Shown here in pieces: positions 2,837 to 45,340 of a DNA stretch of 64,000 bases. The position numbers were made by a program, and so were the translations under genes. The notes below the pieces were generated by a model. It ran no database searches. It was not told where the DNA came from and was given only the letters and a program-made list of their open reading frames with translations. Numbering within the stretch: position 1 is the first letter of the stretch; every line of letters begins with the position of its first letter. Source of the DNA: Allacma fusca (taxonomy: Eukaryota; Arthropoda; Collembola; Symphypleona; Sminthuridae); NCBI GenBank assembly GCA_947179485.1, contig OX359245.1, positions 7,793,001-7,857,000 of the forward strand. The letters are read 5' to 3'.

Positions 2837-2850
2837 AATAATAATAATAA
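2837..2850. repeat. ATA microsatellite
   Basis: A short run of AAT/ATA triplets inside the segmental repeat. Confidence 0.7.
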
Positions 2851-6236: not shown

Positions 6237-7558
6237 TTTGTTAGCAGTGCTCAGCACGGGTATGGGTAATACTCGGCTAAACGGGTATGGGTACGGGTAT
6301 TTGTACTACCCGGGTACCGATTTTGTGTACCTGAACAATTTAGGGTACTACCCGGGTACACTTTGGGTATAAAATTTCGGGTATGGATACGGATATGGGT
6401 ACGGGTACAAGGATTTCAAATTGGGATTATACCCACCGGGTACGGGTATAATGGTGTCATTTACCCGTACCCGCAACAATTCAATTGTACCCGAGTATTT
6501 GGATACGTTGACATTTGAGACATTTTGATGAATTTTATGCCATCATGCTGGGTACTTCCGTTGGAAACTTCTGTCGGTATTTTTAGTAATTCTGAATACA
6601 TATAGGTAATTGTAAACATGCAGCAAATGTATTTCAGACTGTAACATGTTTTAGGAAGAATAAATAAATAAACACAGACGAGGAATAATAACAAGATAGA
6701 AGTGGAGAACAGGATTCTACGAAGTTTCAAAACGTCTACATAATACTATTTATTATGTATTATAATACGGTTTAATAATGTATTGTAGTATTTTGTCACT
6801 AATTACATTAAGAGTCTGTGTGACATGTACATGATACTTCGTTAGCCACAATTAATACAATTTATAAATTTGAGTTCCGAAAAAGTTGGATGGCAAGTTA
6901 TTTTGTGTAATTGGTAGTTGATTAGGAGAAGGCGGATATTTGTAACAAGATATTAATGAGTAATATGTACACAAAGCTACTGAGATGAGAAAATTAGTGG
7001 AAAAGGCCGAATAAATCTAGAAGTTAAAAATCAAAAGTCCCAAGCCAAAACTGCATGTTAATTATCTCTATGCACAAAAATGCATGTACATATAGACTGG
7101 GTGCTATAAAATAAAACCCCATAAACAATCAAAGGGGGATAGTAATAATTTTACTTCTAATCAGAAACGCTTCTAGTTTTCTACTCTTCTATAAAAATAT
7201 ACAATGTCAAATACCTCTCTAGGTAGTCAAAATTACCCACTCATGTGTCATACGTAATTACATATAACGTACTATGTATTACATTTAAACAAATCTGGAT
7301 AAAGTACTCGGGTACGAGTACGACACTGCGATACCCGAGTATGGGTTCAATTTTCGAGTATTTTTCGGGTACGGGTACAATACGGGTACAGGTACATGGA
7401 TTGAGATTACATTGCGGATACGGGTACGAAAAATTTGTACCCGGATATTCGGGTATGGGTACGGGTATAGATACCAGTTATTGAAATACCCGCACTTCGG
7501 GTACGGATACGGGTACGGGTACCGATTTTTCGTACCCGTGCCGAGCACTGTTTGTTAG
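6237..7558 (+). mobile_element. hAT-like non-autonomous element with GGGTAC arms (TSD TTTGTTAG)
   Basis: The 8-bp direct repeat TTTGTTAG (6237-6244 and 7551-7558) flanks a 1306-bp element at 6245-7550. Its termini are imperfect inverted repeats: CAGTGCTCAGCACGGGTATG on the left, and CAGTGCTCGGCACGGGTACG read inward from the right. Eight-bp duplications and CAGTG-type ends are hallmarks of the hAT superfamily. Both arms (6258-6500 and 7305-7535) are degenerate arrays of GGGTAC/GGGTAT words, in opposite orientation on the two sides. The core (6510-7290) has no convincing transposase, so the element is non-autonomous. Its termini match those of 21901-24682, but the cores differ. Confidence 0.9.
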
Positions 7559-7980
7559 AGAGAGTGAAAACTTTGCGTAACTTCGACCAAATCATTACTA
7601 AATTATTTGATTTCTTGCAAAGCAACTAATAATTTTATTATGATGATTAAAAACCACTAGTAATTAATTTAATATATTTCAAAACACTAATAAGAAACAA
7701 GGTGCTTAAATACAATTGACCCAATATATAAATAAGCATTTGATGTGGTACATATACATAAACACATACACAAAACCGCTTCAAATATTTAAAAACATAG
7801 TCAAAATGCCTTTAATTGAGTTATTGAGTAAAACTCAAGCAGCTGTTATTTTTTCGGGTTCGCGCGAGTTGTATCCCTTCGTTCTGACTGCTTGACCACA
7901 ATATACAGGTCCTTCAAGCTGCATTTTTACAACACTATTCGAACTTTTTCATACAAAGTCTTACAAATCCACTAGCAATG

Positions 7981-8826
7981 TACAGTGAATTTCCTATATA
8001 GTGGTTTCCAAGGGAGTAACAAATTCCTGCCACTATATAGGGGTGCCACTATATGTTACTAATGCTTAACTATATACTATTAATGTTTTTAGACAATAAC
8101 TATAACTAAATACATTTATAAATTTATTTATTTTTACAGAATACTCAAAATTATCAGGTATGCTAAGCTTCATTGAGTTTAAGATGTTCAGTAACTTTAG
8201 GTTTCCTCATACAATTAATAATATTAGTCGTAACAAACTTTTCGACTGCAAGGTCACCATTCCAGAAACCAAAATCCTGGAATTATGGCAATGGGAATTA
8301 CTTCCACTGAGTACTCTGCGGTTTTGTCACAATGAGGTTTTGCTTGACTTCCTGTTTAATGTCATTTTAAATCTTCAATATAATAATTCAATTTATTTAA
8401 AAAAACCAGCACGAATTGAAACTTATTAGAAGTGAGCCAAGCCAAGACAAACATGGCAATGATTTGTGTTATAACTGTTCGTTTTAACTTAAGTAACTAA
8501 ACCACAATAATAATCAAACTGTATTAACGTTTGAAATTAAAATTCAACCAACCGAGATAAGCATTATTAAACGCCCGCACGTTTTATAACATCATGTTAT
8601 ACTTTCGTAGCCATTATCTAGCTAATTTTATGCCAACTGCCATTATAATTTCGCATTGTCTGAGCCACCGTAACACATAATAGTGCAATTATAGAGGGAA
8701 TACCATTATAGCGGGTGCCACTATACTGTATACCTTTAACATTGCAACCTCTAGGGAGGGTTTTTTGATGCCATTAAAGAGGGAATGCCATGTAAGAGGA
8801 AACCACTATGTGGGAAATTCACTGTA
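7981..8826 (+). mobile_element. pogo/Tigger-like MITE (TA duplication)
   Basis: The element 7983-8824 (842 bp) is bounded by TA and has inverted ends: CAGTGAATTTCC on the left, and GGAAATTCACTG on the right. Inside the ends, ATAGTGGTTTCC is mirrored by GGAAACCACTAT. The related repeat near 21738-21755 reads through the flanks without the insertion. An 89-codon open frame at 8160-8429 resembles no transposase. The family assignment rests on terminus type and TA duplication only. Confidence 0.75.
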
Positions 8827-8839
8827 GCTCAAAATAAAA

Positions 8840-10290
8840 TACAAATATAATTGATGGCTACTTTTACTCCTTACTGATGATTGAACAGTTAAGTAGCTAT
8901 AATAAGGATATTAAATAAAAGTTTCAATAAAAAATTACTTTTAGTTTCACAAGCAGGATTCCATTTCCCAAATTTAAAGTGGTGCCCAAACTTTATTTTG
9001 AGGGGCTAAGCGTCTGTTCAACTGGCGTGAATAAAGCATCGGTTTTTCAGCGTGATTTCTTATCATTGTCACTTTCTAGCTAAAATAATTTCTTTATTTT
9101 CCCAGTTGAATTTGGAAACCAAAAGAGAGATATTTAAATCATAATTTGAAAATACAATTCTCAATGTAATCACATTTGAGCATTTATTTTTAAAATAAGC
9201 AAATTTGAATACACAAATTAGGATAAAGTTAAAACTGACTTCAAAGATTCATTGCCGTTTATTTAAATTGGCTAGGATCGAAATTTAGTCTCCGAACCTA
9301 GACTTGAACAATTGACCAAAATCCGACAAATGTTTAAAACAAAAGTTCAAGGGGAGAGAAACCTTTGAATTTTTACTTGATTCTGACTTAATTCTTCCAG
9401 ACGTCCAATGTCACAAAAATTCTCAAAGCTGTCATTTGTCAGTCGAACTGAGAAGTTTTCCGAAAAGTGGCAAAATTTTAAAGATGTAGATACTCTTATT
9501 GGAAAATTTTCTCCACATTGGTTTAAACTAATTATTTCCAGTGTGCAAATAATTTTGCATGTCCCGCAAACTGTACTTCCCCTTCCCGAAATCCTTAGGA
9601 CCTATGTAAATATTAGGCCAGCTTCCGTACTGAAATAATACCGGGACAATTGTCCCTTTCCGAAACTGTCGCGGCGCCTCGTCCCAATCAGAATCCTTAA
9701 ATAATAATTATAATTAATTAATTAATTAACATACTATGGAAATGTCTGTTTAAACTTTAAACGATGCCATGTTATGAAGATCTTTATATTAATTTTTTTC
9801 TTATTATTTTGCCAGAGTAACTTAAATGAAACTTTTTTTCATTTGTTAAATACATCCTGCGAAGCTATAACGTTACAGTACATTTACCACTCAACAAAAT
9901 CAAATATTCCATAAATTGAGTTGGTCGGTACAAAAAATATTCAAACAGGCGCAAACGTTCAAATATTTAAGCACACTACTGAAAGTCCACTGGAGTTACT
10001 TGAAATCGTTTAAAATCGTGAATGTCTTATCTTGTTCCGAAAATTTTTCAGGTTTTGCTTTACACCAAAAGGTTACTGCATAAATCTGTTATTCGTCCCC
10101 AGCCAAGCGATACCTTGACAATTGGTATTTATTATTTGGAGATTTTTTTAAAATGGACCGAAAGTAAAAAAAAATATACTTATTTCATTGCACTACATAT
10201 TTCTCTTCATAAAAATCTTTAAAATAATCTTCACTAAAATTTCAATAATTACTCAACAGTACATTTTCCAATTGAAATACGAAACATACG
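8840..10290 (+). repeat. Dispersed repeat family C, copy 1
   Basis: Positions 8840-9400 match 21740-21900 plus 24683-25120, that is, both sides of the large hAT-like insertion. Positions 9400-10290 match 26100-27250 and, more loosely, 18680-19560. Shared words include AATTGATGGCTAC, TAGTTTC, CGTCTG, GCAAATAATTTTGC and TGTACTTCCCCTTCC-like text. An internal stretch carries CCGGGACAATTGTCCC-like words (9640-9660) that are more elaborate in the other copies. No gene is supported. Confidence 0.65.
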
Positions 10291-10599
10291 AATCTGACCA
10301 AAATCATTTGCCCTTCTCTAGCTCTTATGACAGAGTGAGCAAAAATGTTTTTGAGAAAATACTTTGACACTCGTTTATAAAAACTTTCATGGGCTATCCG
10401 GTGATGTTTTGGAAAGGCTTATGCGTTCAAAACTGTGAGCATATCAGGCAAAACCGCGTAAGTAGTAAATTCTGATTCAAGAGAAAGTGGAAAAGCGATG
10501 TGAAAAATAATGATCTCCACGCCACGTGATTCTGTGATGTAATTGGACTTTGAAACAAATATTTCGCTCATATTATAAATAGTGAATTGCCTTGTTTCA

Positions 10600-11700: not shown

Positions 11701-12353
11701 ATTACAAAAAAAAAGAATTTAAAGGAATACCCAAATATTTTGCACCAAGTTTAGAAAAAAATTAAATGCAAATTTTAAAAGCTCCAGGGATTATACAGGG
11801 CTCTAAGACAACATTGACCACAATCAACCTATCATTAGAACTGGTTGAAAATATCCGATTACCCCATGATTTAGCAATACTTTTCCATATTTCTCAAAAT
11901 GTGTTTCATCCTTCTAGCGCAAAACCGCTGAACAGAGCAGAGAAGGAAGTGTCGCAATTTCTGGAATTTTTTGAAAAGGTGAGTTGCGGGAGTTTTAAAT
12001 TGTTTACTGAAATTGTAAAATTTTTATTCAAATCAAGTCTTCTTATTCACTTGTTAATTTCCGTTAAATATTTAAATTTCGAATTTTAATAAATTTCAAA
12101 TCTAGGAAACTTGAAAAATATTCAGTGAAGGATTTCAGGGTCTCAAATGAATTTAGTGAGAATTTAAGATGCAATCTACCATGTTTGAGACGAAATTGGA
12201 AATTCTGTAATAAATTTTCGTTTGAAATTCTGAAACTGAAGTTCACTTTAAACTCTGTGTACTTTACACAAACGTAACTAGTAAAATGTTTGACTGGCCA
12301 ATGTTGTAAAATATACAGTTCCAGCGTTTCTCAAGGCGGTTTTGTTTTATTGA

Positions 12354-13385
12354 CTCAGGACCAGAGGTGTCCATCCTTCGAAAGATTTCCTTCAGAGAAG
12401 GCTTCTTTGAACGAATGAAGCGTTATCTTTGACAAATATGAAGGGAAGGGAAGGAAGGCTGGAAAGGAAACGAAGACTGAACGAAGGCTTCTGCTCTTTG
12501 CAGAAATAATGGAATGTGAAGGAACATGTTGTTTTTACGCCTTCGAACGCCGCTGGAACTTGCAATTCCATCTACTATATTTTAGGCAAAATTCTTCCGT
12601 AACTTAAGTTCATGTACGTACGTACACCGTTACTTAACTGAAAACTATTTTTCTGGCGGGTCGGCTTAACGTTATCTATGGGAGCGTTCATAAATTACGT
12701 CATTCAAATTTTGAAGATTTCTGACCCGCCCCCCCTCTAAATCACATACAATCAAATTTGGCAACCCCCCCTCCATCATAACGTCATTTGTCGTGGAAGT
12801 CATCATAGGTGTTTATATACGGTGGTAACTGGTTACCAGAACTGCTTTCAGGTAGCAAAAAATGAAGATACGCACCTGAACCCGACCCGTACCTGAAATA
12901 TGAGGCTAATTTTTTTCGTGGAATAGTCTTTGTTTTATTGCGAATCGAAGGGTGACATTGTTAAAATTATCTGATTAATAAAACTACTCAATTTTCCAAA
13001 ACTTTTACGAAATTCTCACTTCCAGCAAGCAATTGTTGCTGACATCATGTTTTCGTCAACCCCCCATTTCCCCCTCATCATTTTCTGTCAAATATTTTCA
13101 ACCCCCCCACCGTACCAAGCACATGACGTAATTTATGAACGCTCCCTATTCTGAAACATTTATATCACAAAGGCAGCATGATACCCGAAGCATGAAGGAA
13201 TTTAAATAATTTTTGAAGGCTGAAGGAAGGATTATAGCATGGTTTTGAATGAAGGAAGGGCGAAGGAAGGATAAACATTCAGAAGGCTTCATTTTACGGA
13301 ACGATGAAGGAACGGGTAATTGTAAACGGTTCTCCTTCTGAAGGATGAACGAAGGTGTTTTCAAATGGACACCTCTGCTCAGGAC
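12354..13385 (+). mobile_element. hAT-like non-autonomous element with GAAGGA arms (TSD CTCAGGAC)
   Basis: The 8-bp direct repeat CTCAGGAC (12354-12361 and 13378-13385) flanks 12362-13377. The inverted ends are CAGAGGTGTCCATC on the left and GGACACCTCTG on the right. The arms are packed with GAAGGA/GGAAGG words (12376-12545 and 13185-13355), reading GAAGG on the plus strand at both ends in part. The unoccupied site survives in the paralogous repeat at 3065-3085, where GACTTAGGACACAAGC is uninterrupted. No transposase frame is present. The core is itself occupied by the element at 12680-13146. Confidence 0.92.
12677..13149 (+). mobile_element. Nested TIR element with C-rich interior
   Basis: Inverted ends GGGAGCGTTCATAAATTACG (12680) and its mirror, ending at 13146, bound 467 bp; TAT on both sides may be a 3-bp duplication. 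The interior has several runs of 6-7 C (for example 12730, 12766, 13101) near the ends, always on the same strand. It lies inside the GAAGGA-armed hAT-like element and is therefore younger. I do not assign a superfamily: the duplication length is ambiguous (TA, TAT or none). Confidence 0.75.
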
Positions 13386-14871: not shown

Positions 14872-14890
14872 GTGTGTATATATATATATG
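14872..14890. repeat. AT microsatellite
   Basis: Short TATATA run inside segmental repeat copy B. Confidence 0.6.
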
Positions 14891-21740: not shown

Positions 21741-22924
21741 GCTCAAAATCAATTATAAATATAATTGATGCCTACATTTATTCCTTGCGGATGATCTAAC
21801 AGTTAAGTAGCTATAATAAGGATATTAAATAAAAGTTTCACCAAAAATGTATTTTTAGTTTCTTGTTATATTTAAAGTGGCGCCCAGACTCTATTTTTAC
21901 CAGTGCTCGGACTGGGTACAGAAACCGTGTACCCGTACCCATACCCGTACCCGAATATCGGGTACTACAAAATGCTGTACCTATACCCGTACCCATACCC
22001 GGACCCGTAATGTATTCAAAACCTGTACCCGTACCCGAGTATCTATTGTGTGTACCCGGGTATTACTCGGGTACTGGAAGTTTGGCCGATTTAAAATCCC
22101 CGACGACATTAGCCTGCCCAGCTGAAAAATTTCAAGTTGTCAATTTTTTGACCTCCATGAAAAGTGTCCGGGATTTTGGGAATTTTCCCTAGGCGTTAAA
22201 GACATCCTATTTGAATTTTTTGAAAAAATTATTTAAGGCATTGTGTGATTTTTTTAATAAACACTGACGAAATTCAAATCCTACTACCCCAAAATAATAA
22301 CTTGCTGAATGAAATGAAATGTGTTCTCGCTAATTGGAATTGGGACGGATTCTTTAATACTAAACTCTCCATAACTTGCTTTTCAATTTCGAGAACAACA
22401 AGAAACCATTTTTTTCCGGCTAATCGAACTCTGTGTATAGAAAATGTTAAACGGAAAAATTGAGTTGATCATAATTTTTCCAAGTCAAATATTGCGGTTT
22501 CAGGGAATAAATGTGGGAGGCAATATTGAATATTCATTTTATATTACAGCTTTATAAAACAAACATTCGTAAACTGTCTCTCACATTTATGAAGCCCGAG
22601 ACGGAGATTTTCGAAAAATGCAGGCAAAATAGAACTAAAATGCAACCCCATGGAAGTTTTGAACGCCAAGTTCAGATGTCTGTCAAGTTCTTTTAACATC
22701 AAAATTATCAAGATTAATCAAAGGGACTGAAATATAAATATTGCGTGCAAGGAATGATATTTTTCATTCTAAAATGTTATAAATATTCACCTCAATGAAT
22801 ACTCAAAGTGTCATAAATACCCAGAATTGAAAATGCTCAAATTGCCTGCATAAAATGCCTTGGCGTTTTCAAATGGACAACCCTGGGTACTTGTAACGTT
22901 AAGAAATGGATCTGCTAATAAATG

Positions 22925-23156
22925 TATCAACATCCAATTTACAGTTGAAGTGGAACTTAATGAAACAATACCATTTTTAGATGTTTCCATACATCGGCAA
23001 GAGAACAATACCATTAAAACGAAAGTATACCGCAAGAAGACACAAACCGACAGATATTTAAATTACAATTCATATCATCACCAATCAAACAAAATCTCAG
23101 TCAGATATTTTACTATTCAGAGCTTTCTCTATTTGCCACAAAGATTTCTTAGATGA
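22925..23156 (+). pseudogene. Penelope-like reverse transcriptase, C-terminal remnant
   Basis: The frame reads NIQFTVEVELNETIPFLDV followed by VYRKKTQTDRYLNY, the signature of the RT thumb end in Penelope-like elements (PFLDV, then YRKxTxTDRYL). The catalytic palm with its YxDD motif is missing upstream, so the copy is 5' truncated, as expected of target-primed insertion. A one-base frame break between about 23100 and 23121 separates it from the nuclease frame, which picks up as AFSICHKDFLDEEIQYVKY. Not functional. Confidence 0.8.
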
Positions 23157-23874
23157 AGAAATTCAATATGTAAAATATATTCTACAACGGAACAGATATC
23201 CTATAAGCCTCATTTCAAAACGATTGAATAGAATGCGTCTAAAGTTCAATACGTTTAACCTACAAAACGTACCCAATTTAGCCATTCAATATAATTCATC
23301 AATAAGAAATGATAATCCAGTTATTACTGATTCTCAACTTCAAATTAAAATGGAGGAAGTAGTAGAAGAAATTGAAGAATACACTAAATGGGTTCCCTTT
23401 CCATTTCTTGGTACTTTATCCAATAAAATTGCCGGATTATTACGACGAAAATTTCAATGGAAGATAACTTTCCTGCCCGGTAAGAAAATTAAAAGTATGC
23501 TTAACCGATTCAAGGACAAAGAAGAGAACGAAACTCACGTAATATATAATTTTCCATGCAAATCATGTGACAAAATTTATTACGGTGAAACATACCATCC
23601 TTTAAATACACGGCTGAAAGAACACATGGACCATGTTCAATTAAAGAATCGTGAAAAATCAGCAGTTGCTCGGCACATTTATAACAATCGGAAACATTCT
23701 ATCGATTGGGATAACGCCAGATCAATCATGAAAGAACCAAATCAGTTTTTGAGAAAAATCAAAGAAGGTTTAATAATCCAACAATCGGATAAGAATTTGA
23801 TGAACGTCAACGATGGTTTTTTATTAGACGCTGCATGGAATCCTTTAATTCAGAAAATTATAACTAATTCTTAA
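23122..23874 (+). pseudogene. Penelope-like element GIY-YIG endonuclease domain
   Basis: The frame opens after the break at about 23121; an ATG at 23224 gives 216 residues. Counted from that ATG, residues 108-190 form a GIY-YIG-like nuclease: CKSC at 112-115 and KIYYGET at 117-123 (YYG in place of the canonical YIG), then Arg130, Glu133-His134 and His151. The C-terminal tryptophan region AAWNPLI is at 203-209. Cys112/Cys115 and His134/His151 could form the zinc-binding set reported for this clade. In life this domain nicks DNA to prime reverse transcription. The domain itself is open, but the element lacks its RT core. The frame ends with TAA at 23872. Confidence 0.85.
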
Positions 23875-23954
23875 AAAAGTTTGTTCCTAGAAAATTGATT
23901 TTTAAAAAATATGTATTTTTCTCGAATTGCAAATTTTTCTACCACTTGCTTGTT

Positions 23955-23998
23955 AGTGCCTGAGGATGACAGTCTGTTAGATGTCGTAAGCTTGCATA
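23955..23998 (+). ncRNA. Possible degenerate hammerhead ribozyme core in the Penelope 3' region
   Basis: CTGAGGA (23960-23966) fits the hammerhead CUGANGA box. GACA (23968-23971) can pair with TGTC (23982-23985) as stem II, followed by GTAA where GAAA is expected. Hammerhead motifs are known in the terminal repeats of Penelope-like elements. The GAAA box is changed and stem I is not evident, so at best this is a decayed relic. Confidence 0.3.
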
Positions 23999-24689
23999 TA
24001 ATTTAGCTTGTTTAATAAAATTAACCACGTAAACCAAAGAAATGGATTCTATTAATAAATGTATATTTATTCCGATCTTATCTCGTAATGCGTCTTCAAA
24101 TAATTGTAATGTTACGCTCCCAATGAAGATAATTAAACTGAATCCCAAGAACTTCCCTTTTGAAATTCTTCGTTGATGAGCTTCACTATTTAAGTCGATA
24201 AACAGATGATTTCACTGACTCTACGCTCTATTTCTTTATTAGATTCCTTGGATGAATTATTAGAAGCGTTAGATTGCAACTACCACGTAATCATAAATGA
24301 GACGAAGCCACTTGGCTCTGTCACTAACACACGTATCTGTATACTACGAAATAAGCAACTCCACGGTTGGTAGGTCTTATTGTTAGCCATTGTAAACCAT
24401 TCCATCAGGAACCCTTGAAGTACCCAAAAATACTCGGGTACAGCACCCACGGGTACAGGTATTTTACATAGTGATACCCGTACCCATTAGGTACTACCCG
24501 ATTGTCACTGAGTGAGTACCCATACCCGTACCCGCACCTGTACCCACTTTATTGTCTAAAATCCAGAGTACCCGGGTAGTACCCGCGTACTTGCGAGTAC
24601 GCAACTTCTGTACCCGGGTAGTACCCATACCTGTACCCGTACCCATTTACCCGAGTATTACCCGTACCCAGTCCGAGCACTGATTTTTA

Positions 24690-27300
24690 CGGACAAAACG
24701 TCTGCTTAACGGATCGGTGTTTCAACGGGATTTCATATCTTTGTCCCTATATATCTAAAATCAATTAGATTTTTTCCCAGTTGAAGTTGTTAGCTAAAAG
24801 AGGGATATTTAATTCGTATATTTGAAAATAAAAATCTCAATGGATTCACGCATGAACATTTATTTTTAAAATAAGCAAATTTAAATACACACAAATTAGG
24901 ATGAAGTTCAAAATGACCTAACTAATTCATTACCGTCTATTTAATTTGACTGCGGTTGAAAAAATAGTCTCCAAACCTAGGCTTGAATATTTGACACAAT
25001 CCGGAGAAATTTTGATTACAAAAGTTTGAGGGGCAGAAAACCGTTAAAATTTTGCAATTAGTACTTGATTCTGAATTAATTCTTCCAGACGACCATTATC
25101 AATTGCTGAATTTTGAAAGGTTTTTATTTTTGATTCCTATCTGGTAAAAGCTGGTTTTAATTTTCTATAGGTACTTGTAATGTCTTGATCCGATGTAAAA
25201 TTTGGAGTTTAAAATCTCCAAAATATTGTAGAGCAACGCAGACAAAAGTAACCTTAATTTACTAGTTGTCATTGGTACTCACCCTAGCAATAGCTGTCTT
25301 GATTTCTACAACTCTCGAGAGTGAGGGTAATCTTCATCTACAAGGCAAGTTTCAAAGTTAACCTGGTCGAAGTTCGTCCAAACAAAAGTTTTAATTTGTC
25401 AGTCGAACTGGGAGAAAATTTTGAGGATGTACTTACAATTTTTAGTGGAAGTTGACTTTTTCATTATTTTAGGTAGAGAACGATAAAAATCCAAATAAAT
25501 GAGAACCTCTATCAAAAGCGAACTACGCTTGCTCTACAACATTTCAGGAATCGTTGATGTCTTTGAAAAATTTGGAATGACGAGATAGAAAACGTTCCCG
25601 AAATATTTTTGAAATATTTGTCGCAGTAAGCAACACTTCCATTCTATGTCACAAAATGTATTTAAAAGCATTTTCAAACAAAGTTTTGATTGTCAAAAAA
25701 TGCTGGAACAGCCTGTGGTAGGACGTCAAATCTTGGCACACATCAATTAAAGTATTTAGCTTGTCAAAATAATTTTTGTATAGTTATATTAACATAACAC
25801 TGGACGAAATTGATTACCTAATGTAATGCAACTTATTTGAGCTTTCAAAAATTAATAGCTGGCGTGGAAGCTTAGGATTTTAAAACCAATTTCATTGCGC
25901 ATTGTATTTCGTTTCTCAATATTTTATAGCAAAAGTGTAGAAATGGGTGTAAGGTAGAAGCTAAATTTTGAAGTAGAAAAGAAGCCAGTATTTTTGAAAA
26001 AGATGGTAACTTATCAAATTGGACAGTAGTAGGAAAGTAAAAATACAGTAATTTCATTTCTCTTAATACTTGCAAGGAAACCTCGCGGAATGTAGTATTG
26101 AATCGAAATGAAACTTTGAGTAGAGAAAAATATTCAGTCGAGTTTGGAAATACTCGGGATAAAATAAGTGCCCCGGTCCTATTTACAAATACCACCGGGG
26201 ACAATAATTATTTTTGTTCCGGAATTGTCCCGTCCCGAAAAGTAACTTATAACATTCCAAATTCCTATTTTTCTAAAGTGACAAAATGTTAATCCATAAA
26301 GATTTAGATACTCTTATTGGGAAGCTTTCTCCTTATTGGTTGAAACTAACTATTTCCAATGTGCAAATAATTTTGCCTGTCCCCGCAAACTGTACTGCCC
26401 CTTCCTTAAGACAAAAATGTTGGGTCGGCTTCCGTACCGAAATATCACCGGGTCAATTTTCCGGGTATTGTCCCGTTCCTAAATCAGCGCGGTGTTCTTT
26501 CCCGATCAGAGTCATTACTTTTGATTATATGGATTTGTCAGTTTTAACTCTAAACGATGCCTTGCTATGAAGGAGTTTTTATTTGTTTTTATTCTTATTA
26601 TTTTGCCGGCTCATCCTAAATACGTTAAAATCTAACGTTAAAAAAACAAACTTTTAAACTCGAAAAAGCTGGTTTCCCCCCAAATTTTAGCTTGGATGAG
26701 TTCATCGTTGGAGATTTTCGTTCAGTGTTTCGTGAGAAAACAATAATCTTAGAAAGAATTCTGTGGAAAAGGAGACTATAATAATTGATCATCTCTGCAG
26801 AAGTTGGAGGAATGGTGGGAATGCTTTGCTATGATGGTCTTTCTGTTTATTTATTTTTGAATTATGTTGTCAAACAATCCCAAATTTTTTTAATTTGTTA
26901 AATGGATCCAGAAAAACCATGCCTTCCAATCCCAATGAACGTTTGTATGGAAAATTTCAAATCTTTAAACAAACTGATCAAAGTTACCTGGAGATACTCT
27001 TAAAATGTTTCTTGTTCCGATATTTTTCAGATTTTGATTTAATGGTTATTATTAAAAGGTTATTAATGTCTTACTGGTCCTCAGGCTAGGCACACCTTGA
27101 TAATTAGTATTACGGTGGAAATTTTTTAAAGCGTACCCAAGGTAAAAAATAAACTTATTTCATTACGTTACATACTTCTCTTTATAAAAATCGTTTAACT
27201 AATCTTCACTAAAATTTCAGTTAAGTTACGCAGCAGCAAATTTTTAAATAGAAATGTGAAGAATGCAATAGTTCAATTAAGTTAATTTGAATCTGGCCAA
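24690..27300 (+). repeat. Dispersed repeat family C, copy 3
   Basis: Continues the host repeat interrupted by the hAT-like element (24690-25120 against 9000-9400). It then matches 9410-10290 at 26280-27250, with an additional middle section. Words such as CACCGGGGACAATAATT and TTGTCCCG (26190-26240) resemble 18860-18990. Short open frames (for example 25872-26204 on minus) are not shared between copies. Confidence 0.6.
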
Positions 27301-29829: not shown

Positions 29830-31470
29830 CAGTCACAATTAGTTGTGTGGTCTCAGATTATTCAATGTTGCTCACATGTAATTTTTTGCCCACGAATTGG
29901 TCACAATTAGTCACAGGTACTTGTGTGGCTTAAGATTGGTCACAATTAGTCACAATTAGTTTTTGGCCTTAGATTGATCAATATTGGTCACAATTAGTTT
30001 GTTTGGCCTCAGATTAGTCACAAATAGGTTTTGGCCTGATTGATAAATATTGGTCACAATTAGTTTGTTTGGCCTCAGATTAGTCACAAATAGGTTTTGG
30101 CCTGATTGATGAATATTGGTCACAATTAGTTTTGTTTTGCTCAGATTGGCCAATATTGGCCACAATTAGTGTTTGAGCCTTGGATTGGCCAATATTGGAC
30201 ACAAGTAGTTTTTGGTTTCAGATTGGTTCATATTGGTCACAATTAGCTTATTGACATCAGATTGGTCAATATTGGTCACAATAAGCTCATTGACATCAGA
30301 TTGGCCAATATTGGTCACATATAGCTTATTGACATCAGATTGGTCAATATTGGCCACAATTAGCTTAATCACATCAGATTGGTCAATATTGGCCACAATT
30401 AGCTTAATCACATCAGATTGGTCAATATTGGCCACAATTAGCTTAATCACATCAGATTGGTCAATATTGGCCACAATTAGCTTAATCACATCAGATTGGT
30501 CAATACTGGCCACAATTAGCTTTTTGACATCAGATTGGTCAATATTGGTCACAATTAGCTTTTTGACATCAGATTGGTCAATATTGGTCACAATTAGCTT
30601 TTTGACATCAGATTGGTCAATATTGGCCACAATTAGCTTTTTGACATCAGATTGGTCAACATCGGTCACAATAACTTTTTTGGCATCAGATTGGTCAAAA
30701 TTTGTCACAATTAAGTTTTCGCTCTCGGAGTGATAACTATTAGTCACAATTACTTTTTTGGCCTCAGATTAGCCAATGTTGGGCGCAATTAGTTTTTTGG
30801 ACTTAGATTGGACAATATTGGATACAATTGGTTTTTTGGTTTCAGATTGGTCAATATTGGTCTCAATAAGCTCATTGACATCAGATTGGCCAATATTGGT
30901 CACATATAGCTTATTGACATCAGATTGGTCAATATTGGCCACAATTAGCTTATTCACATCAGATTGGTCAATATTGGCCACAATTAGCTTTTTGACATCA
31001 GATTGGTCAATATTGGTCACAATTAGCTTTTTGACATCAGATTGGTCAATATTGGTCACAATTAGCCTATTGACATCAGATTGGTCAACATCGGTCACAA
31101 GAACTTTTTTGGCATCAGATTGGTCAAAATTTGTCACAATTAAGTTTTCGCTCTCAGAGTGATAACTGTTAGTCACAATTACTTTTTTGGCCTCAGATTG
31201 GCCAATATTGTGCGCAATTAGTTTTTTGGACTTAGTTTGGACAATATTAGATACAATTGGTTTTTTGGTTTCAGATTGGTCAATATTGGTCCCAATTACC
31301 TTATTGACATCAGAATGATCAATATCGATCACAATTACGATTTTTATCCCTAGAGTGGCAAACATTTGACACAATTCGGTTTTCGCCCTCAGATTGGTCA
31401 ATATTGGACACAATTAGTGTTTGATCTCATTGACCAACGCTGGTCACAACCGATTACTTGGCAGTAGATT
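29830..31470. repeat. 39-bp minisatellite, open on both strands
   Basis: About 40 units of a 39-bp repeat (TTGACATCAGATTGGTCAAT then ATTGGTCACAATTAGCT). Because 39 is 13 codons, one frame stays open on each strand: minus 30166-30747 (193 codons) and 30769-31413 (214 codons) repeat IDQSDVKKLIVTN with variants; plus 30212-30733 repeats SDWSILVTISLLT. The unit has no stop in these frames, so the long frames follow from the repeat length. Two sub-blocks (30200-30760 and 30840-31180) have the same order of variant units, showing a block duplication. I do not call a protein gene. Confidence 0.85.
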
Positions 31471-32507: not shown

Positions 32508-33928
32508 ATTTAGCTCCCACAAAATTGCATCTAGCGAGGGATACTTATAAATGCATTGTGACGTTTCAATATATTTTAACAGGGCTTGAACTATTTTGAG
32601 CCTCAAGTTCTGTAAGCTGCTACATACAGACAAGCGCGTGTCTCTTTTCAAATTGTTAGTGTTCAACTCATTAAATTCTCGGAGGATCGAAGGAGATAGT
32701 CGTGTTACAAGGTTCAATTCTTTGTCTCAACTTTTAAGTCTCCTATCAGATTTAACATAAGAAATTTTAAGCAATGAGAAACCCCTCGCCAGTTTCTAAT
32801 ATGTTTGACAAAATGTGAAACTTGGGCAACTAATGGCCGCCGAACTCATGCGTGTTTGTATCTCAATCCAGAGGACACTAGTATACATTTCCATATACGT
32901 AGTATTACAAAATAGGTTCAGCTTTGGGTTTCGCGATCTGTATGTGGCAACTTCCGGTACTGGACGCTCAATTCATAGTTAATAATAAATTTTAAAAATT
33001 ATATGGGAGATTATTCAGTATGTAGGCAAAACCTAAGTGTGTAGCCTGTAGATTTGAAAAATATATAATAATTATTTTATCGGAGGCACATTTAGCGTCC
33101 ATATACTCAATTATTCTTGATATTTGTGTACCTTCCTGCATTTTTGGATTTTAAATTAAAAACTGCAGAAATAACCAACATTGCCTTAAACTTTAACAGT
33201 TCAATTATTAAAAACTTAATGGGATTAATTTGGATTATTTTGAATTCTCAGGATGACAATAAGCAATTGCTTCAGTTGCTTCAAGCTCAAATAAGGAAGC
33301 GTTTCGTAAAATATTTGCTTACCCAAGTTAGTGTGAAATTTAGTTCCAGATTTTCTAAACTTTACTTTTGAGGCCACCGGGGTTCCGAAATCTGAGGGAA
33401 ATCCAATTTTTAAGAAAAAATAAAATGAAAATTTCTGCAAGTTATTTACCGTCACACAAATGATTCAAAAATGGACCCAGCCCTTGAAATTGAAGGCTTT
33501 AATAAAAACTTTAATTTTGAACCTTTGTCAAAACAAACTAGTGGTCCCGATCTTTCAATTCTGAATCAAAATAACTCGAATCGATTCGATTCAATTCAAT
33601 TCTGATTCATCATTTTTCGATTCAATTCAAAACATGAATTGAATTATTTCATTCAATTCACTTCATGAATGAAATCACGCAAAATGCCTTGAATCGCGAT
33701 TCAAATGATTCACGTGCATCGAAGTTGTTTGCATATCCCGCTAAAAAATGCAGCTAGAAACGCATATTTAAAAACCTCGCACGTGTTTCTGAGAGACATT
33801 TTTGTTGGAAAACCGACTTATCAATTATTTCGTAAATAATAATTTGTATACATTAAATACATCAATTATTATTAATTATTATTACAGCGTTTACTAACGA
33901 TAGAATTTAAGTCATAATTAGACAGTTA

Positions 33929-34775
33929 ATTAGGAGCAAGGATGGGAATCAGAATCGGTATTGGAATCGGAATTATATTCGAAAATTTGAGGATTTTAAT
34001 TCATATTAGAATTCCAACTAATTCCCAGAAAGTATTTTAATTCAAAATCGCATTCAAAAAGATGTTTGGAATCCGAATTGGTATTCAAATATTTTTTAAT
34101 GAATTCCGATTAAAACAAAGTATTGTTTTCAATGGTATATTTCATCAAGTGTACATACTTAAATATAAATTTAAAATTGTCGCAATTTTTTACTTACAAC
34201 GTAAAGTTAATCAAAGAGCATTAGCGAACGTTTTCTTCGTCCGAAATGAACATGCTTCCGCATTCTACGTAAAATAGAGTCAAATTATTAGCACTTGTCA
34301 GAGGCTTTTAACGGTTGTGCTCAAAACTATTGTTTGTCGTACAAGTTAATTACTTGTAATTTAAGTAATTTAAATCGTTGATACTAAAATGTTTGTAGGT
34401 AACTAAAAATGGGCCGAAAGAAAATTTGTAATGTTGGAGTTCAAATATCAGTTGAACGTGTTTTTTTAGCTCTTAAATTTATACCTAGTGACCTGCCGGG
34501 GGAAACTAGCTTCCCAAAACATTCATGATATCATGTTTCTAATGTTGAACTTTTTCCATAATTAAATTCTTTGTATTTTCAGTATACTAGGAGTATTCAA
34601 ATAAATATTCAAATCGGAATTCATAATGAACGAATACTCGAGGATATTTAAATCCGTATTATAATTCATATTTTTCAGTATTGCTATAAGTATTTTAAAT
34701 CGGAATTCTTCGCCTTGAATATTTTAATTCGAATTAGAATTCATATTTTTCCGATTTCCCATCCTTGATTAGGAG
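33929..34775 (+). mobile_element. Nested hAT-like element with GGAATC arms (TSD ATTAGGAG)
   Basis: The direct repeat ATTAGGAG (33929-33936 and 34768-34775) flanks 33937-34767 (831 bp). The ends are CAAGGATGGGAATCAGAATC and, inward from the right, CAAGGATGGGAAATCGGAAA. The arms contain repeated GGAATC/CGGAATT and ATTCATATT words on both sides. A 71-codon frame inside (34062-34277) matches no transposase. It sits wholly within the element 33539-35242, so it inserted later. Confidence 0.9.
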
Positions 34776-34801
34776 GATATGTAACTCGATTTCGTGAATG
34801 T

Positions 34802-34988
34802 TACAATCCATTCTCGCTATTAAGGGATGCTCATGTGACCTGAAAAATATGTCCCTTATACACATTATACCGTATAAGCAGTGTTATACATTGTGTAAAT
34901 GGGAATCGGGACTGTAAATCCCAATCCCTTATATCAAAAAATCCCCCCGGGGAAAAAAAGGGTATCCCTTATATGGAAGGTCACTGTA
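34802..34988 (+). mobile_element. Diverged pogo-like MITE, nested
   Basis: The element 34804-34986 is flanked by TA. Its right end, read inward, is CAGTGACCTTCCATATAAGG; the left end CAATCCATTCTCGCTATTAAG is only partly complementary. Both ends continue with GGGAT. It lies inside the 33539-35242 element, next to the other nested insertion. Confidence 0.55.
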
Positions 34989-35519
34989 ATGACAAATTTA
35001 TACAATATTCTTCCGCTGTTTTATGTAGTCATTATAAAATCCTTAAATAAAATGTTTATGCTACCACCTTTTACGTCCTGAATGATTTGAATCATCATTC
35101 GATTCAATTCATCACGCAGAATTGAATCAAATTGAATCCTGTGAATCGTGAATTGAATCGAATCATTGTATGTCATTCAATTCATACGTTGAATTGAATC
35201 AAAACGAAATTTTTGAATTGAATTGAAAGATTGGGACCACTAAAACAAACTATGAAATACCATTTGAATAATTACTTCCAACAATCACCATACGTACAAT
35301 CAAGCAACAACCCAACAATTAAATTTCCTGGTAATTTCGTTTAACGCATCAAATACACTGATTCCTAAATATCAATAGCAGTTTTAAAATTTTGTCCGCA
35401 AATATTCGCCGGTTGGTTTTCAATGTTGAAAGCTCCAAGGGAAATAAATTACCAGAGAAAACAAGAATATATAATATAAGGATTTCTGACCTTGATTTAT
35501 ATTCCAGAAATCTAATTAT

Positions 35520-39050: not shown

Positions 39051-41410
39051 GGGGATGGGGATGAGGGATGATGTGTGAGTGTGTTTAACTGCGTATGTAC
39101 GTAAGTATAGAAGGGGATAGGGGTTTGGGGACTCAAGCTTGGAGTGAGAGAGTACGTGACCAAATAATGTACAGTATGTGAAAGATAGTAATAATTTAGA
39201 GAACTTGATCCTTTACTAATTATGAGTTGATGGTTAAGCCAGAACTGAGGATTGAACTGAGGTTCAATCCTTATAAGTGTTACATTGTTTACTTATGTAC
39301 CATACAATAATAATAACATTCTGTACTTATTACTTATGTATTGCATTCCTTAACTATTACATAATGTGGAGAGCATCTTCCCATGCTCTCTATGAATAAA
39401 CATGCATATATGTACGTGCTGTACGTAACACTAGCTTCAAATATAAACTGAAAGAGAGGAAGAAACAGGGTTTGAAATTTTGTGGTAAGATGGGAAGATT
39501 CTTTCCGGGGAAAAATATTTCGTGCAGGGAAATATCAAACAGATGAAATTTATTTTTGCAAACAGGAATTTGTAAATTCGTTGACGGCTTTTTTGGCGGA
39601 AATGTTTTAATTTGATGGCGCATCTGATGGAAATCTGTTATGCAAACAGGGATTTCTGAAATCTTTGAGGACCTCCATCCAAGTTTAAAAGATTCAGCAG
39701 GGAAATTCACAAATGATCTTCCAGGGAGATTTACAAAAATCCGACCCGTGGTAGGAAGTATAGCCAAATCGGAAATATTTTTTTTAAATGCCAGCCGTGG
39801 AATTGATTTAAGTGTATGAATTTTACCCCAAATTCAAATCTACGAAATTTAAAAAATAATCAGTGAACGATTTTGCATGTGTCACATCAAGTTAGCAAGA
39901 ATTTAGAATGTAAATAAATACCTTTGGAACGGAATCGCAAAATTGGTATTCAGTTTGGCACAAAATCTGCAGTTAAAATTCTTGAAGCATCGTAGAGAAT
40001 TCATAAAGTGGCGTTGAAGCTCAATTGTTAATGTAGTTGTGCAATGTAACTTTGTAAATTATCACTGATTGGGGAAAGTAAAAGAATGCGCTTATTTTCT
40101 CCTGTTACGCAAATATGGGCTTAGTAGACACATTTGATAGTCCCTGTCTATATATTATCGTTGTGTCACCTCTGAAATTCATTTCATTAATCGTTCAAAT
40201 TCATCAATAAATTGGCTCCGGGTTTCCTTGGAAACTATAATACTCGAATGTTGGGGACGTTCGCTTCAAACTTAACCTTAAATAGATAAATCCTGGAGTA
40301 AAACGTTGACAGAACAATTTTAAGGGTCCATTCAAAATTTTTGCAGTGGGAGATGGAGTTTTTCATAGTTAAGATAGAATTCACCGAAAATTTAAACATC
40401 AATGAGAACCACCACCAAGAAAACGAACTTCACTTTTCCTACAAAAATCCTGGCAACTTGGGTTGCTTTGAAACATTTTGAATGACGGAGGCAGCACTAG
40501 GAAGTGAATCCAATTCTGAAATGTTTTTGAAAATGGTGAGTTGCGAAAGTTAATTTTTTACTTGATATTTGATTGAAATCAAATTTCTTTGTTGCTGTGC
40601 ATGTAACTTTTGAATTTCGTGGCAAATTGCCTTTTTATACTAAAGGTACTGGAATGGAATACACCTCGTCTCCTTACCCCTAAAAATTATTTGCTAGAAG
40701 CGAACGATAAATCCTTTTTTCCGTAAATTGAAATTCGACTTCAAGATGTCGGGATTTAAAGTAATTCCGAAAATTTTGCAGATGTTCTCCTACTTCCCTA
40801 AATATTGTCCGAAGAGTACTTACGCAGCAAACTTAATATGTTTAAAAAAATAATGTCTTTGCTTTAATATTGCTTCACATGGTAAACCTTACAATAAACA
40901 ACTCTCGATACAACAATTATGCAAATATGTACCTCGGAAAATCAATTGATATTGTGGTGAAAAATTGACGGTGACGTCAGTTCCAGTGCACACACTCAAA
41001 AAGACTTGAACACATAAACAGGAGGTTAGGCTTTCATTGAAGGTTTTATAAATAGAGGGGTTCGCACAGTTTAGAAAAGCAAATATTTATTTTCATTAGA
41101 TATGTAAATTTTTGAATTTGATGCCAAATTCAAATCTGCGGAACTTAAAAAATTATCAGTGGATGATTTTTAAGGTGTCACAACAATTTAGCTAGATTTT
41201 GGGATGTAATATTGTTTGCAACAAAATTGAAAATTTGTGAGCTAACATACCATGCTGCCAATTGTCTGAACTAATTGTATTTGGAATTTCACAGAAAATG
41301 TGAAAAGTGGCGTTGATGCTCGATTGTTTAATTTCTTCCATTTGTCTTGTAGCTTTTTCAATGATCATTTATTGGGGAAAACACAAGAATGTGTTTATTT
41401 ACTCAAGTTA
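35820..41410 (+). repeat. Dispersed repeat family D, three copies
   Basis: Copies at 35820-36110, 39845-40110 and 41140-41410 share ATCA(G/A)TGAACGATTTT-like text, GTGTCACATCAA, a GTGGCGTTGAAGCTCAATTG-like motif and GGGGAAAGTACAAGAATG-like text. They are separated by unrelated sequence. Confidence 0.55.
39466..39750 (+). mobile_element. Probable hAT-like MITE related to 59640-59795
   Basis: The left end CAGGGTTTGAAATTTTG and right end (inward) CACGGGTCGGATTTTTGTAA resemble the termini of the element at 59640-59795, and both carry GGGAAGATTCTTTCC. The flanks do not give a clean 8-bp duplication. The 125-codon minus frame at 39390-39767 spans the element and its flank and is not a gene by content. 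Confidence 0.55.
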
Positions 41411-41899
41411 CAAGAAAGTAGCCTTAGTAGACACACGAAATTTTATTCTTCCTGTGTCACTCACTTTTTAAATCCGATAATTTTAAGCGATATCATTTCA
41501 TTGGTTACTTTGAATTTAATAAAATGCTTGGCCCCAACGTTAAAAATGTACGTAACAATAGGAGCCTCTGCGGTATTGTGTCTGCAATTCAAATTTTAAA
41601 TGTACTAATCAGGGTCAAATTTTATTATATTTTTCACTAATTTTTAATTACTGTAAGAATTGATTTTCAAATTTGAACCTTCTCAACGAAATAAAATATT
41701 CTACAAAACTTTATTAACCATTACAATATGATACTAACTTGGAGGCACAGAAAAATTTGTAACGCGTGCCCTTCTTAGTTGACAGACTAGAAATTATTTA
41801 AAGCGGCGTGGAAGCTGTTATTTAAACAAGCATTTGATTCACTCGTTCATTTTTTGTTCACTTCTTTTGTGGCTTGGATAATTTTAATTGGATTTTAAT

Positions 41900-43040
41900 T
41901 AAAGGCTTTATACGCAAACTTTTTATACTAACAAGTAATTTTTGTTTGAAATTCTGAAACTAAAGTTCACTTTAAAAATATGTACTTTACAAAAAAAAGG
42001 CTCATAAAATATTTGAGTTACAATAATTAGTCAGGTTGTAGCATATCCAGTTCAAGCAGGTCTCAAATGTACTTGATTGACTCAAGTAAAATTAGTTTTG
42101 AAATCAAGTGGGCCAGAATGGGAAGGAAATCCGTTTTTTTAGAAACTGATATTCTCCAATTCGTTATTGTCAGATCGTTTATTGATCATGTCTCAGTCTG
42201 AACGATTAGAATTATACGCGTAAGCCTCAATGCAACATTATTAAAATGCCTACCACGTGGGTATGAACTATATTTAAAGTGGGGCGAAAGTTTAAATTTT
42301 TAAACACACTGATGGTACTTTTAAAATAATTGGGAACTAGTAAAAGCCCCGTGCTTCGCACAGGAGCAATTACTTGTGTAAATAAATAATGTACATAATA
42401 AAAGTGTAAATGGCAATAGATCTCGTATCAAGGCATGTCGAGAAGGCTTCATATTAATATCCCGCTTCGCCAGGCAAAGTAATCTCATATAAGACGTGAA
42501 GTATTAACTGTAAGACTAACAATTCGTTTCATATAGGTAGTTGGCAATTCATCATCAAAATATTATGGGACAACAGCTTTCGGCTACTAAAGTTTTCTCC
42601 CAAACTCAATATTTGGCTATACACGTGGAATTTAACTAACCGCTTGATCAATTTAATACCAACGTCGTTATTAAATCTTGCTGTTGCATCACTGTATGGT
42701 GCTTCACTCGTTATTGTTAGTGGATCAGCACAACGTGCTGATCAAATATGATTTTTTATGTTATTATAATTTGTATATAAATCCGTTGTACCGCAATATT
42801 GTAACTGAAGCCTCAGACACTGGACGCACTGATTATTTAATTTTTCCTAGTAAGAATCCCACACTAATGTGAACAAAGTTCAGTCATTAAAATTCTCCTC
42901 TTATCAAATTATTCTGTACTGTAACCGAACGTAGTTTTTCTCACTACCAGTCTTAATTTAATCCAAATGATTGATGATTTACGTCTAATGTTTATATAAT
43001 AATTATGATTAGCGCTTTTAAGTGATAATCTAAAATGGCG
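41900..43040. other. Diverged repeat then unassigned DNA
   Basis: Positions 41805-42180 resemble 2870-3070 and 12200-12330 (CTGAAACTAAAGTTCACTTT). After about 42340 (CCCCGTGCTTCGCACAGG) the sequence looks single-copy within the window; no gene is supported. Confidence 0.35.
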
Positions 43041-43059
43041 TAATATTGAGAGCTTCCCT

Positions 43060-43205
43060 TCTAGTAGGCTGCAAGCAGTTGCGTTATAGCCGAGAAGAAA
43101 AGCGAGCTGAGCGAGCTGAAAAAGCTCTACTCCTCCTCTGCGACAGAGTCTCAGCTTTCAGCCCGCTGTGCTTCTCGGCTTGTTGTATATACCACCGACT
43201 TGCTT
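43060..43205. repeat. Imperfect palindrome
   Basis: AGCCGAGAAG (43088-43097) is mirrored by CTTCTCGGCT (43171-43180), and AGCTGAAAAAGCT is partly mirrored by AGCTTTCAGC. It has locally higher GC than its surroundings. It could be a small foldback element or a hairpin; no target duplication was recognised. The 64-codon frame at 43046-43240 reads straight across the palindrome. Confidence 0.5.
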
Positions 43206-43269
43206 GGCTTAAGCCGGGATGGTTTGAATTCGTGAAATAAGCCGCGAAGGTTTAAATCAAAGGACAGGT

Positions 43270-43480
43270 CGAGAGCAATAAGAAGAAGGATGTCTAATCT
43301 TGTTCCGACTATTTCTCAAATTTTTTTGTATTATACCAAAATGATATTAATTGTTATTCTTCCTCAGGCAAGCCATACCTGGACAATTAGTATTAACAAT
43401 TATTATTAATTAGGAAATGATTTTTGTAAAAGCTAAACGAAAGGAAAAAATACACATATTTCATTACATTACATGTTTCT
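43270..43480 (+). repeat. Fragment of dispersed repeat family C
   Basis: TGTCTAATCTTGTTCCGACT, then ATTATACCAAAATG and CAGGCAAGCCATACCTGGAC, match 10022-10140, 19268-19370 and 27005-27110. Confidence 0.6.
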
Positions 43481-44224
43481 CTTTAGTTTGAAATCGAGAA
43501 ATATATAGATATATCAAAAGTAGAAAGCTTTTGTGTAAGGTATTAATGCCTACCTACTTGCCCAATTCTTGGCTCAGTTATTCATGCTCAGTTTATTGCA
43601 GATCGACCTATTTTGCAGTTTGCAACTTCAATATAGCACGAATTTGCTAGAATACAAATATTATCGATGAAAATTCCTGTAAATATGGTTTGTATTTATT
43701 TCCAACAGTTACACAAATGGGTTTAGTATTTCATTTTCCATTTCAAGTTATCTCTAACTATTTGGGATATTTGGATCGGCCAAATTACTTTGAATAAAAT
43801 TAAACTGTGGATACAATTTATCCATTGATTTGAAAATTTCTTGGTGAGTATTTTCATTACTCTGGTTTGATTGATGTCACAACGTAATATATTGGCAAAA
43901 GTTAGACAATGTGTGTTAATTTTCATTGTTTTTTAAAATAACACTTGAACCACGCTGAGGTCCTAAAAATAATTTCACCTCCTGTCATTGAGATTACATT
44001 GGTTTTGCTCTCATTGTTTCTGCAATTAATATTATCGAAAGAGCAAGTCACAATTCATTCACATTTGTGACTTTTATCTTGTGTAGATATTCCTAATCTA
44101 AGCTAGTAATTCAATTTCGGTGCTCACTATTTTAATTGTAGGAATTTGTATCTTGAAAATGCCCAAAATGCCCAAATTGCATGTGACCAGGGGGGTCATT
44201 CTCGAACAGAATTTACGATATCGC

Positions 44225-44447
44225 AAGTTACGACTTCGTAAGAACGTACGACACTTGTCGTACGATGCACTGCTGCCCTAGTCCAGTCAAACTTGCCTAG
44301 GAAACTCTAGACTTGACTAGACTAGGAACAAAATGGACGTAAAAGATTAGACTTGGCTTGACTACGAATGGTGTTACTATTATACGACTTGACTAGAATA
44401 GACTAGGTCAGCTTGCAAAAACACAGGACTTGACTAGAATTGACTTG
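44225..44447. repeat. GACTTGACTAG-rich array, truncated element
   Basis: A hairpin CGTACGACACTTGTCGTACG (44255-44274) is followed by an array of GACTTGACTAG/GACTAGACTAGG words. The GGCAAACCTAGTCCAGTC words reappear right of the next insertion (45343-45361). It looks like the subterminal arm of another word-rich element, split by the insertion at 44456; I could not find its ends. Confidence 0.45.
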
Positions 44448-45340
44448 CATGACTCTAAGGTTCTCAACGAGTCGGATAAAATCGGATATCCGCGACTCGG
44501 GTATCCGAAAACACGGATCGGATGGAAGGTTCATCCGATCCGATGTCTAATCGATCGGATCGGATCGAATACTAGTCATCCGACTGAAAACACGAGTCGA
44601 ATCGGATAATTTTAATCGGATGATTTCGTTGGATGATCCGCGGATTTCCAAGTTTCAATTTTGTGCGCGAATCTCAACCTAATCACAGTGATTTTGTGTA
44701 TCGCCAGCAACAAACAATCAAACTCACCTACAAACATCTGCTGGAAAATTTTAAACTGCTATTTGCCAGTGCAGCTGTGACAATGTGACATATATATACC
44801 AATAATTTTGTGGTTACCTGACAGGTTTAATTTTTTAAAAGAAGCCAGTGATCTTTAAAACAAGTTCCGGAGGATGCTTGGGTAAAACTATAAAAATATC
44901 GCTCTGTGGTTCAGTTCACTGATGTTTGTAAATATCTTCAAAAACATTTACCACTGAAAATTATTGTGAGGATGACAATCTTTCGCCTGACAATTTTGAA
45001 TGTCCCAACCTTGAATCGAAAACGCACATCACTGAATCGGAAGTCCCAAAATATTTGGTACAGGGTATTTTTGTCAAATACAGTTTGAAAATGCTTTCCT
45101 GCGTTTAAAGCAATTACTATTTAATGTTAATGTCTGATGTCGGATATCCGCGGATCGGATCGGTTTATTAGACGATCCGGACCGTTTTCTGACGGATCGG
45201 ATCGGATTTGCAAAATTTTTTATCCGAGCAACAAGGATCGGATCGACTGAGCATAATACTTCATCCGAAAATTCCGGTTCGGATCGGTTTCGGATCGGAT
45301 GATAAATTTATCCGACTCGTTGAGAACCTTACGATGACTC
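44448..45340 (+). mobile_element. hAT-like element with CGGATC arms (TSD CATGACTC/GATGACTC)
   Basis: Near-perfect 8-bp repeats CATGACTC (44448-44455) and GATGACTC (45333-45340) flank 44456-45332 (877 bp). The ends TAAGGTTCTCAACGAGTCGG and their mirror match over more than 20 bases. GGTTCTCAA is a common hAT end motif. Both arms are packed with CGGATC/GATCCG words (44470-44650 and 45140-45310). No transposase frame was found in the AT-rich core. Confidence 0.88.

Follow-up and report, generated by a model that had tools for sequence, protein, structure and literature searches.

Elements in the window

The window analyzed here is the whole 64,000-nucleotide stretch C1:7793001-7857000 (C1 being contig OX359245.1) of the springtail Allacma fusca, and the genome searched amounts to 392.7 Mb. 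The window contains six short elements with terminal inverted repeats (TIRs), target-site duplications, and subterminal arms that carry arrays of a short, family-specific word. The ends of all six were inspected at base level. These elements are listed below by window position, together with a smaller insertion found in one of them.

6245..7550, unstranded: E1, non-autonomous hAT-type element; duplication TTTGTTAG (8/8); TIR CAGTGCTCRGCACGGG (11/12); word CGGGTA/GGGTAC; arrays at ~6201-6520 and ~7301-7600
21901..24682, unstranded: E1b; duplication ATTTTTAC (8/8); TIR CAGTGCTCGGACTGGG (12/12); word as in E1 (CGGGTA/GGGTAC); arrays at ~21881-22140 and ~24401-24720
12362..13377, unstranded: E2; duplication CTCAGGAC (8/8); TIR CAGAGGTGTCCAT (12/12); word GAAGGA/CCTTC
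12677..13148, unstranded: nested inverted-repeat element of ~470 bp with ends GGGAGCGTTCATAAATTACGT; sits in E2 and is unrelated to it
33539..35242, unstranded: E3; duplication AAACAAAC (8/8); TIR TAGTGGTCCCRATCTTTC (11/12); word TTCAATTCAA/TGAATC; arrays at ~33541-33740 and ~35041-35300
33937..34767, unstranded: E4, nested in E3; duplication ATTAGGAG (8/8); TIR CAAGGATGGGAA (12/12); degenerate word GAATY
44456..45331, unstranded: E5; TIR TAAGGTTCTCAACG at both ends; word CGGATC/CGGATA; arrays at ~44401-44680 and ~45101-45380

All six elements are hAT-type. The tips of hAT TIRs follow a YARNG consensus, and the tips found here (CAGTG, CAGAG, TAGTG, CAAGG, and TAAGG) fit this short form. The TIRs match at 11–12 of the first 12 bases in E1, E1b, E2, E3, and E4. 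E1b is a separate element of a subfamily related to E1. Most or all of the six are non-autonomous, and they come from five of the many hAT families in this genome. The first-pass annotation had described short-TIR, hAT-like elements in which each family has its own word, and the TIRs, duplications, and arrays of the six elements bear this out. Its description of the 8-bp duplications, one of them with a single mismatch, stands in part. The duplications are exact in five elements, but the flanks of E5 (CATGACTC on the left, and C followed by GATGACTC on the right) give a 7/8 match plus one extra base, which is worse than described.

Some further features lie within or beside these elements. The ~470-bp element in E2 has many matches at 86-98% identity elsewhere in the genome (40 scored of 898 candidates), and E2-type copies without this insert are present at C1:61238443-61238984 and C1:1159475-1160016. 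Inside E1b, a coding stretch at 23300-23870 resembles the terminal part of a Penelope-like retroelement of the GIY-YIG type. Beside E5, another word-rich stretch (GACTTGACTAG) occupies positions 44200-44455, and an ACTTGA array also occurs in loci L010, L016, L021, L052, and L056 of the genome.

Subterminal word arrays

Enrichment was assessed in 17 elements as the best 6-mer common to both 200-bp arms, with the first 14 bp skipped, against 500 dinucleotide shuffles. The score was reached by 0/500 shuffles in 13 of the 17 elements (E1, E1b, E3, and E5 in the window, and L055, L060, L061, L062, L065, L053, L057, L059, and L064 elsewhere) and by 3/500 in E2. In a second test with 300 shuffles, from which one- and two-letter words were excluded, the 6-mer and 5-mer scores were reached by 0 and 1 shuffles for L063, by 4 and 0 for E4, and by 1 and 45 for L019. 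L064 failed this test (58 and 230 of 300 shuffles) because its own word, CAACAA, is excluded there.

The array of E4 is clear with the degenerate word GAATY only, a word picked post hoc after the sequence was inspected. GAATY occurs 15 times in 120-bp arms and 21 times in 170-bp arms, compared with shuffle maxima of 11 and 13-14, respectively, and GGAATY occurs five and eight times (maxima 4-5 and 5-6). The density of GAATY is 6.1 per 100 bp in the arms and 0.2 in the interior. With E4 read in this degenerate form, the claim that the arms are enriched in a family word agrees with the shuffles for all window elements.

The arms are family-specific: the left-right arm cosine is 0.38-0.76 within elements and mostly 0.01-0.15 between unrelated families. 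Words are found on either strand at irregular intervals, and some form short runs with a period of 5-6 bp.

Copies across the genome

The E1-type end pattern CAGTGCTCRGMMYGGGTA has 1095 + 1068 = 2163 exact matches genome-wide (reversed control 0 + 0), and the bare E1 13-mer CAGTGCTCGGCAC has 604 + 585 (control 2 + 1). For the other families, TIR counts gave 155 + 154 = 309 ends for E2 (reversed control 3 + 1), 178 + 172 = 350 for E3 (0 + 0), and 171 + 164 = 335 for E5 (2 + 1). At least eight of the E2 TIR pairs listed span exactly 542 bp. For E4, 769 candidates were obtained, and none of the 40 matches scored falls below 90% identity.

Full-length copies of E1 are 77-98% identical, the query aside (40 places scored of 1457 candidates). 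Among 12 E1 loci fetched, the window copy included, both ends are present in 10, with exact duplications in 9/10 and a single mismatch in 1/10. The first-pass annotation had held that copies with the same TIRs but no arrays would speak against it. In E1, arrays are present at both ends in all 10 of these copies, and GGGTA directly follows 60 of the 62 exact 13-bp TIRs on C1:1-9.36 Mb (lists compared by hand), the two others being at C1 positions 4158187 and 7562065.

Two observations concern longer or paired copies. Two E1b-type pairs of exactly 4593 bp lie ~14 kb apart (C1:1331050-1335642 and C1:1344920-1349512); they may represent a longer family member or a nested insertion that was duplicated. 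In close plus/minus TIR pairs of the E3 type, inspected by eye, one end has CCCGATC and the other CCCAATC, such that the left and right tips consistently differ by one base.

Coding partners and other hAT families

The genome was searched with the Pfam hAT dimerisation profile (150 matches scored of 860 candidates). The regions around 17 hits were read, in addition to short loci, and 10 of these regions gave elements whose ends could be placed. The ends of L051, L052, L054, L056 (left end), L058, L066, and L067 were not settable. Among these, L052, L056, L058, and L067 have arrays but no complete element.

Three of the five families (E2, E3, and E5) have a coding partner with matching TIR and word, a transposase-encoding element of the kind that the first-pass annotation had proposed to look for. 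The E2 partner (L007 joined with L069) is 3791 bp long, with a TIR match of 13/13 at both ends and the duplication CCTCCCAG. E2 matches the ends of this partner at 95% over 315 bp and 97% over 166 bp, with a deletion junction near E2 position 842, and is, judging by these alignments, a deletion derivative of the 3791-bp coding element. The E3 partner (L055, positions 495-4916) has a duplication with one mismatch, arms that are 92% and 86% like those of E3, and a nested E1 copy. The E5 partner L060 and its near copy L062 carry the 14-base TIR of E5, with two mismatches at the right end of L062. Their arms resemble those of E5 at 72-74% over ~117 bp only, and therefore the mobiliser of E5 itself may be another member.

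Among 10 open reading frames (ORFs) submitted to Pfam, eight have the hAT dimerisation domain, including those of L007 and L060. Nothing was found by this search in the ORF of L055 or in the short ORF that bears the finger of the E2 partner; a match to the dimerisation domain lies inside L055 in the genome profile search. The zf-BED domain scored above the cut-off in one ORF of the 10 (L064), and a C2H2 BED-type pattern was recognised by eye in 11 further elements. The L064 transposase matches Hermes structures (E ~1e-10). The words of other coding elements are CTCTAC (L053), CGTTAC (L057), GTACAA (L059), ACGTTA (L063, weak), CAACAA (L064), and CGGATA (L061 and L065).

Transposase similarity was looked for in the interior of E1 and none was found; the interiors of E1, E1b, E3, E4, and E5 have no similarity to the transposases read, and when these transposase peptides were compared with the window, nothing reached E 1e-3. 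Among the best candidates of protein searches with L053 and L064, none fell inside the long E1-type pairs listed on C1:1-9.36 Mb. L025, L028, and L030 were rejected as E1 coding partners, as their hAT domain lies outside the E1-type element by coordinates. Likewise, L068, a 3.3-kb E1 pair, was rejected as a coding E1, having no transposase-like ORF (the longest is 102 amino acids).

Array density in coding and short copies

For the three families with partners, counts per 200-bp arm are similar in coding and short copies: ATTCA occurs 14+15 times in E3 and 15+12 in its partner, ATCCG 15+15 in E5 and 17+13 in L060, and CTTCA 4+7 in E2 and 6+4 in its partner. In addition, an arm of the transposase-encoding E2 partner contains a 29-bp unit repeated 7.3 times at 97% (L007 1097-1309). 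This is the clearest recent expansion, and it indicates that tandem duplication can lengthen the arm of a coding element.

These counts bear on the suggestion that the arrays are a binding-site expansion, grown because non-autonomous copies compete for transposase. The abundance of E1-type ends (2163), far above the other families counted, and the lack of an E1 transposase among those found are consistent with this suggestion. However, the partners of E2, E3, and E5 are as array-dense as the short copies, and therefore array expansion is not specific to non-autonomous competitors; moreover, the clearest tandem growth is that of the coding E2 partner. With no density excess in the three families, we rejected competition as the cause and regard it as very improbable.

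Interpretation of the arrays

Our preferred interpretation, with a probability of roughly 0.8, is that the family words form subterminal arrays bound by the transposase, like those of Ac and Hermes and of unusual diversity for a single genome. In each family, the terminal 150-250 bp are filled with copies of a 5-7-bp word, which the BED zinc finger of the family's own transposase would recognise. Many BED fingers of an oligomeric transposase would bind many words and thereby bring the short TIRs to the active sites, and the differences between families would reflect the separate BED fingers of the transposase lineages. We infer that the word is the binding site, the BED finger its reader, and the dense array an aid to mobilisation.

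Such arrays have precedents. Ac transposase binds subterminal AAACGG repeats cooperatively, deletion derivatives keep the terminal 200 bp, and three hexamers suffice at the Ac 5' end (PMC3260210). Maize Ac/Ds elements have 8-bp duplications, short TIRs, and subterminal short repeats, as do the elements described here, although their words differ. In comparison with the three hexamers of Ac, ~10 or more copies of the putatively functional words per 200-bp arm are common here. In the house fly element Hermes, the BED finger binds AAGT/AAGC repeats, of which 17 and 14 lie in the two ends. Hermes shares with the elements here a BED finger plus hAT core, many short repeats at both ends, and an end-specific orientation; its repeats are sparser 4-mers verified by structure, whereas the 5-7-bp words here were deduced from counts. 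CGGBP/hAT-19-type BED+Hermes DNA-binding domains likewise have diverse BED specificities, and four hAT DNA-binding domains have microarray motifs that match their own subterminal regions (PMC8097297). Specificity in that study comes from protein-binding microarrays, and here from DNA alone in one springtail genome. Subterminal binding repeats and differing BED specificities in hATs are already established, and the arrays described here are of a known kind. In the open-licence literature, searched by titles and abstract starts, neither a comparison of several families within a single genome nor a rule of word polarity was found, which is weak evidence of absence.

Several observations weigh against the binding-array interpretation. 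The commonest word need not be the binding site: in Hermes, GTGGC was first taken for the binding site, but the BED finger binds another word. The regions read and two protein searches yielded no coding partner for E1 or E4. Three of the 17 hAT regions (L051, L054, and L066) have no array at the scan threshold and no convincing ends, so that arrays may be missing from some hAT copies of this genome, or the copies may be truncated. The joint 6-mer test failed for E4 (80/500 shuffles), for the E4 copy in L018 (70/500), and for L063 (76/500). Finally, the words are no better kept than other arm bases in 10 E1 copies (divergence 0.030 and 0.032, respectively; with CpG, i.e., cytosine-guanine steps, removed, 0.032 and 0.027; divergence in the interior is 0.040).

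The last of these points also favors a different explanation, in which slippage and short tandem duplication near the ends built up the arrays neutrally, and copying passed them on with no role in binding. The short 5-6-bp-period runs within arms and the 29-bp unit in the arm of the E2 partner point the same way. However, one word is found in both arms, on both strands, and at the ends only rather than in the interior, and arrays are seen in unrelated families. The words are also kept between the 3' arms of L061 and L065, although their arrangement is conserved no better than in block-shuffled arms (score 15 versus a mean of 16). Inside the arms, Tandem Repeats Finder detected two small stretches only (21930-22037 and 45151-45209), and therefore one slippage product fails to explain the arrays. 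We consider slippage improbable and retain the binding-array interpretation.

Words and BED fingers

If the words are binding sites, they may follow the BED finger. Among 11 coding elements, with BED peptides partly assembled by eye, BED identity was compared with the 6-mer cosine of the arms. The Mantel correlation is 0.87 (0/5000 permutations), 0.77 without L062 (0/5000), and 0.60 without the close relatives L061 and L062 (5/5000). Arm similarity has a Spearman correlation of 0.43 with the transposase core and 0.55 with BED. The first-pass annotation had proposed that each family is tuned to a different transposase, and the tracking of BED similarity by the words in these 11 elements is as predicted. 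It is ambiguous in one respect, as common descent also fits.

In that alternative, the correlation between word and BED reflects joint inheritance only, and the word need not be the BED target. Because core similarity correlates with arm similarity as well, common descent is a live rival; furthermore, similarity of ~67-77% over 99-241 bp persists among the arms of L060, L061, and L065. A discordant trio argues in the other direction. The core of L056 is nearer to L057 (54%) than to L053 (42%), but its recognition-helix stretch of 24 residues is nearer to L053 (15/24) than to L057 (12/24). Its word is nearer to that of L053 as well (GTAGTG and GTAGAG versus CGTTAC; 5-mer cosine 0.39 and 0.28 versus 0.27 and 0.23). 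The trio is weakened by the whole BED domain of L056, which is nearer to L057 (51%) than to L053 (45%), and by the single readable arm of L056. We consider joint inheritance alone plausible, though less likely than not.

In Hermes, the base-specific contacts are Q64, S66, N67, and R70, with main-chain contacts of R63 and T65, just before H71 (PMC10368747). By eye, Asn is at the place of Hermes N67 in 11 of 12 fingers (Thr in L055), and the places of Q64, S66, and R70 are variable. A comparison of word and spacer identity between families (0.87-0.99 versus 0.57-0.73) was dropped, as block-shuffled arms give 0.88-0.93 at words because the aligner draws words together.

Word polarity

In 24 elements, the strand of the word in the two arms is the same in 16, opposite in three, and tied in five, although the TIRs are inverted. 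The opposite cases are E3, its partner, and the nearly neutral L025. When the eight commonest 5-mers are scored, 21 elements are same and three opposite. Grouped by hand into 15 families, the counts are 11 same, one opposite, and three ties (one-sided sign test ~0.003). Polarity is a post hoc observation on a non-random sample, since hAT or element queries were used to retrieve the loci, and words within a run do not count as independent; it is also weak in some members, e.g., E4 (5:4 and 6:4). When strand is scored relative to the gene, L063 gives no clear direction, and the E3 partner remains opposite. We rejected the idea that polarity stems from purine loading of the coding strand: with words removed, the arms are 0.44-0.63 purine and the middles 0.50-0.55. 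This account fits L053 alone well.

Given same-strand words and inverted TIRs, the words face the tip at one end and face away from it at the other. In Hermes, the left-end repeats STR2-7 are antisense and the right-end repeats STR1-5 sense, which is the same arrangement as here if, by our reading of the legend, both ends are drawn tip inwards. If true, polarity would let an oligomeric transposase tell the left end from the right. That word polarity marks the two ends and that the word also records BED specificity, such that at least 15 families would lead toward a BED recognition code, is a tentative combined proposal that we consider rather doubtful.

Other features of the window

A tandem array with a 39-bp unit (33.9 copies at 80%) lies at window positions 30104-31424. 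A loose scan of the window for the TIRs of other families was uninformative.

Implications

To our knowledge, no general code for BED-finger recognition exists. If the words record specificity, the many transposase/word pairs of one genome would be a training set obtained without binding assays. In addition, same-strand polarity would explain, simply and testably, how hAT transposases tell apart two ends whose TIRs are almost the same.

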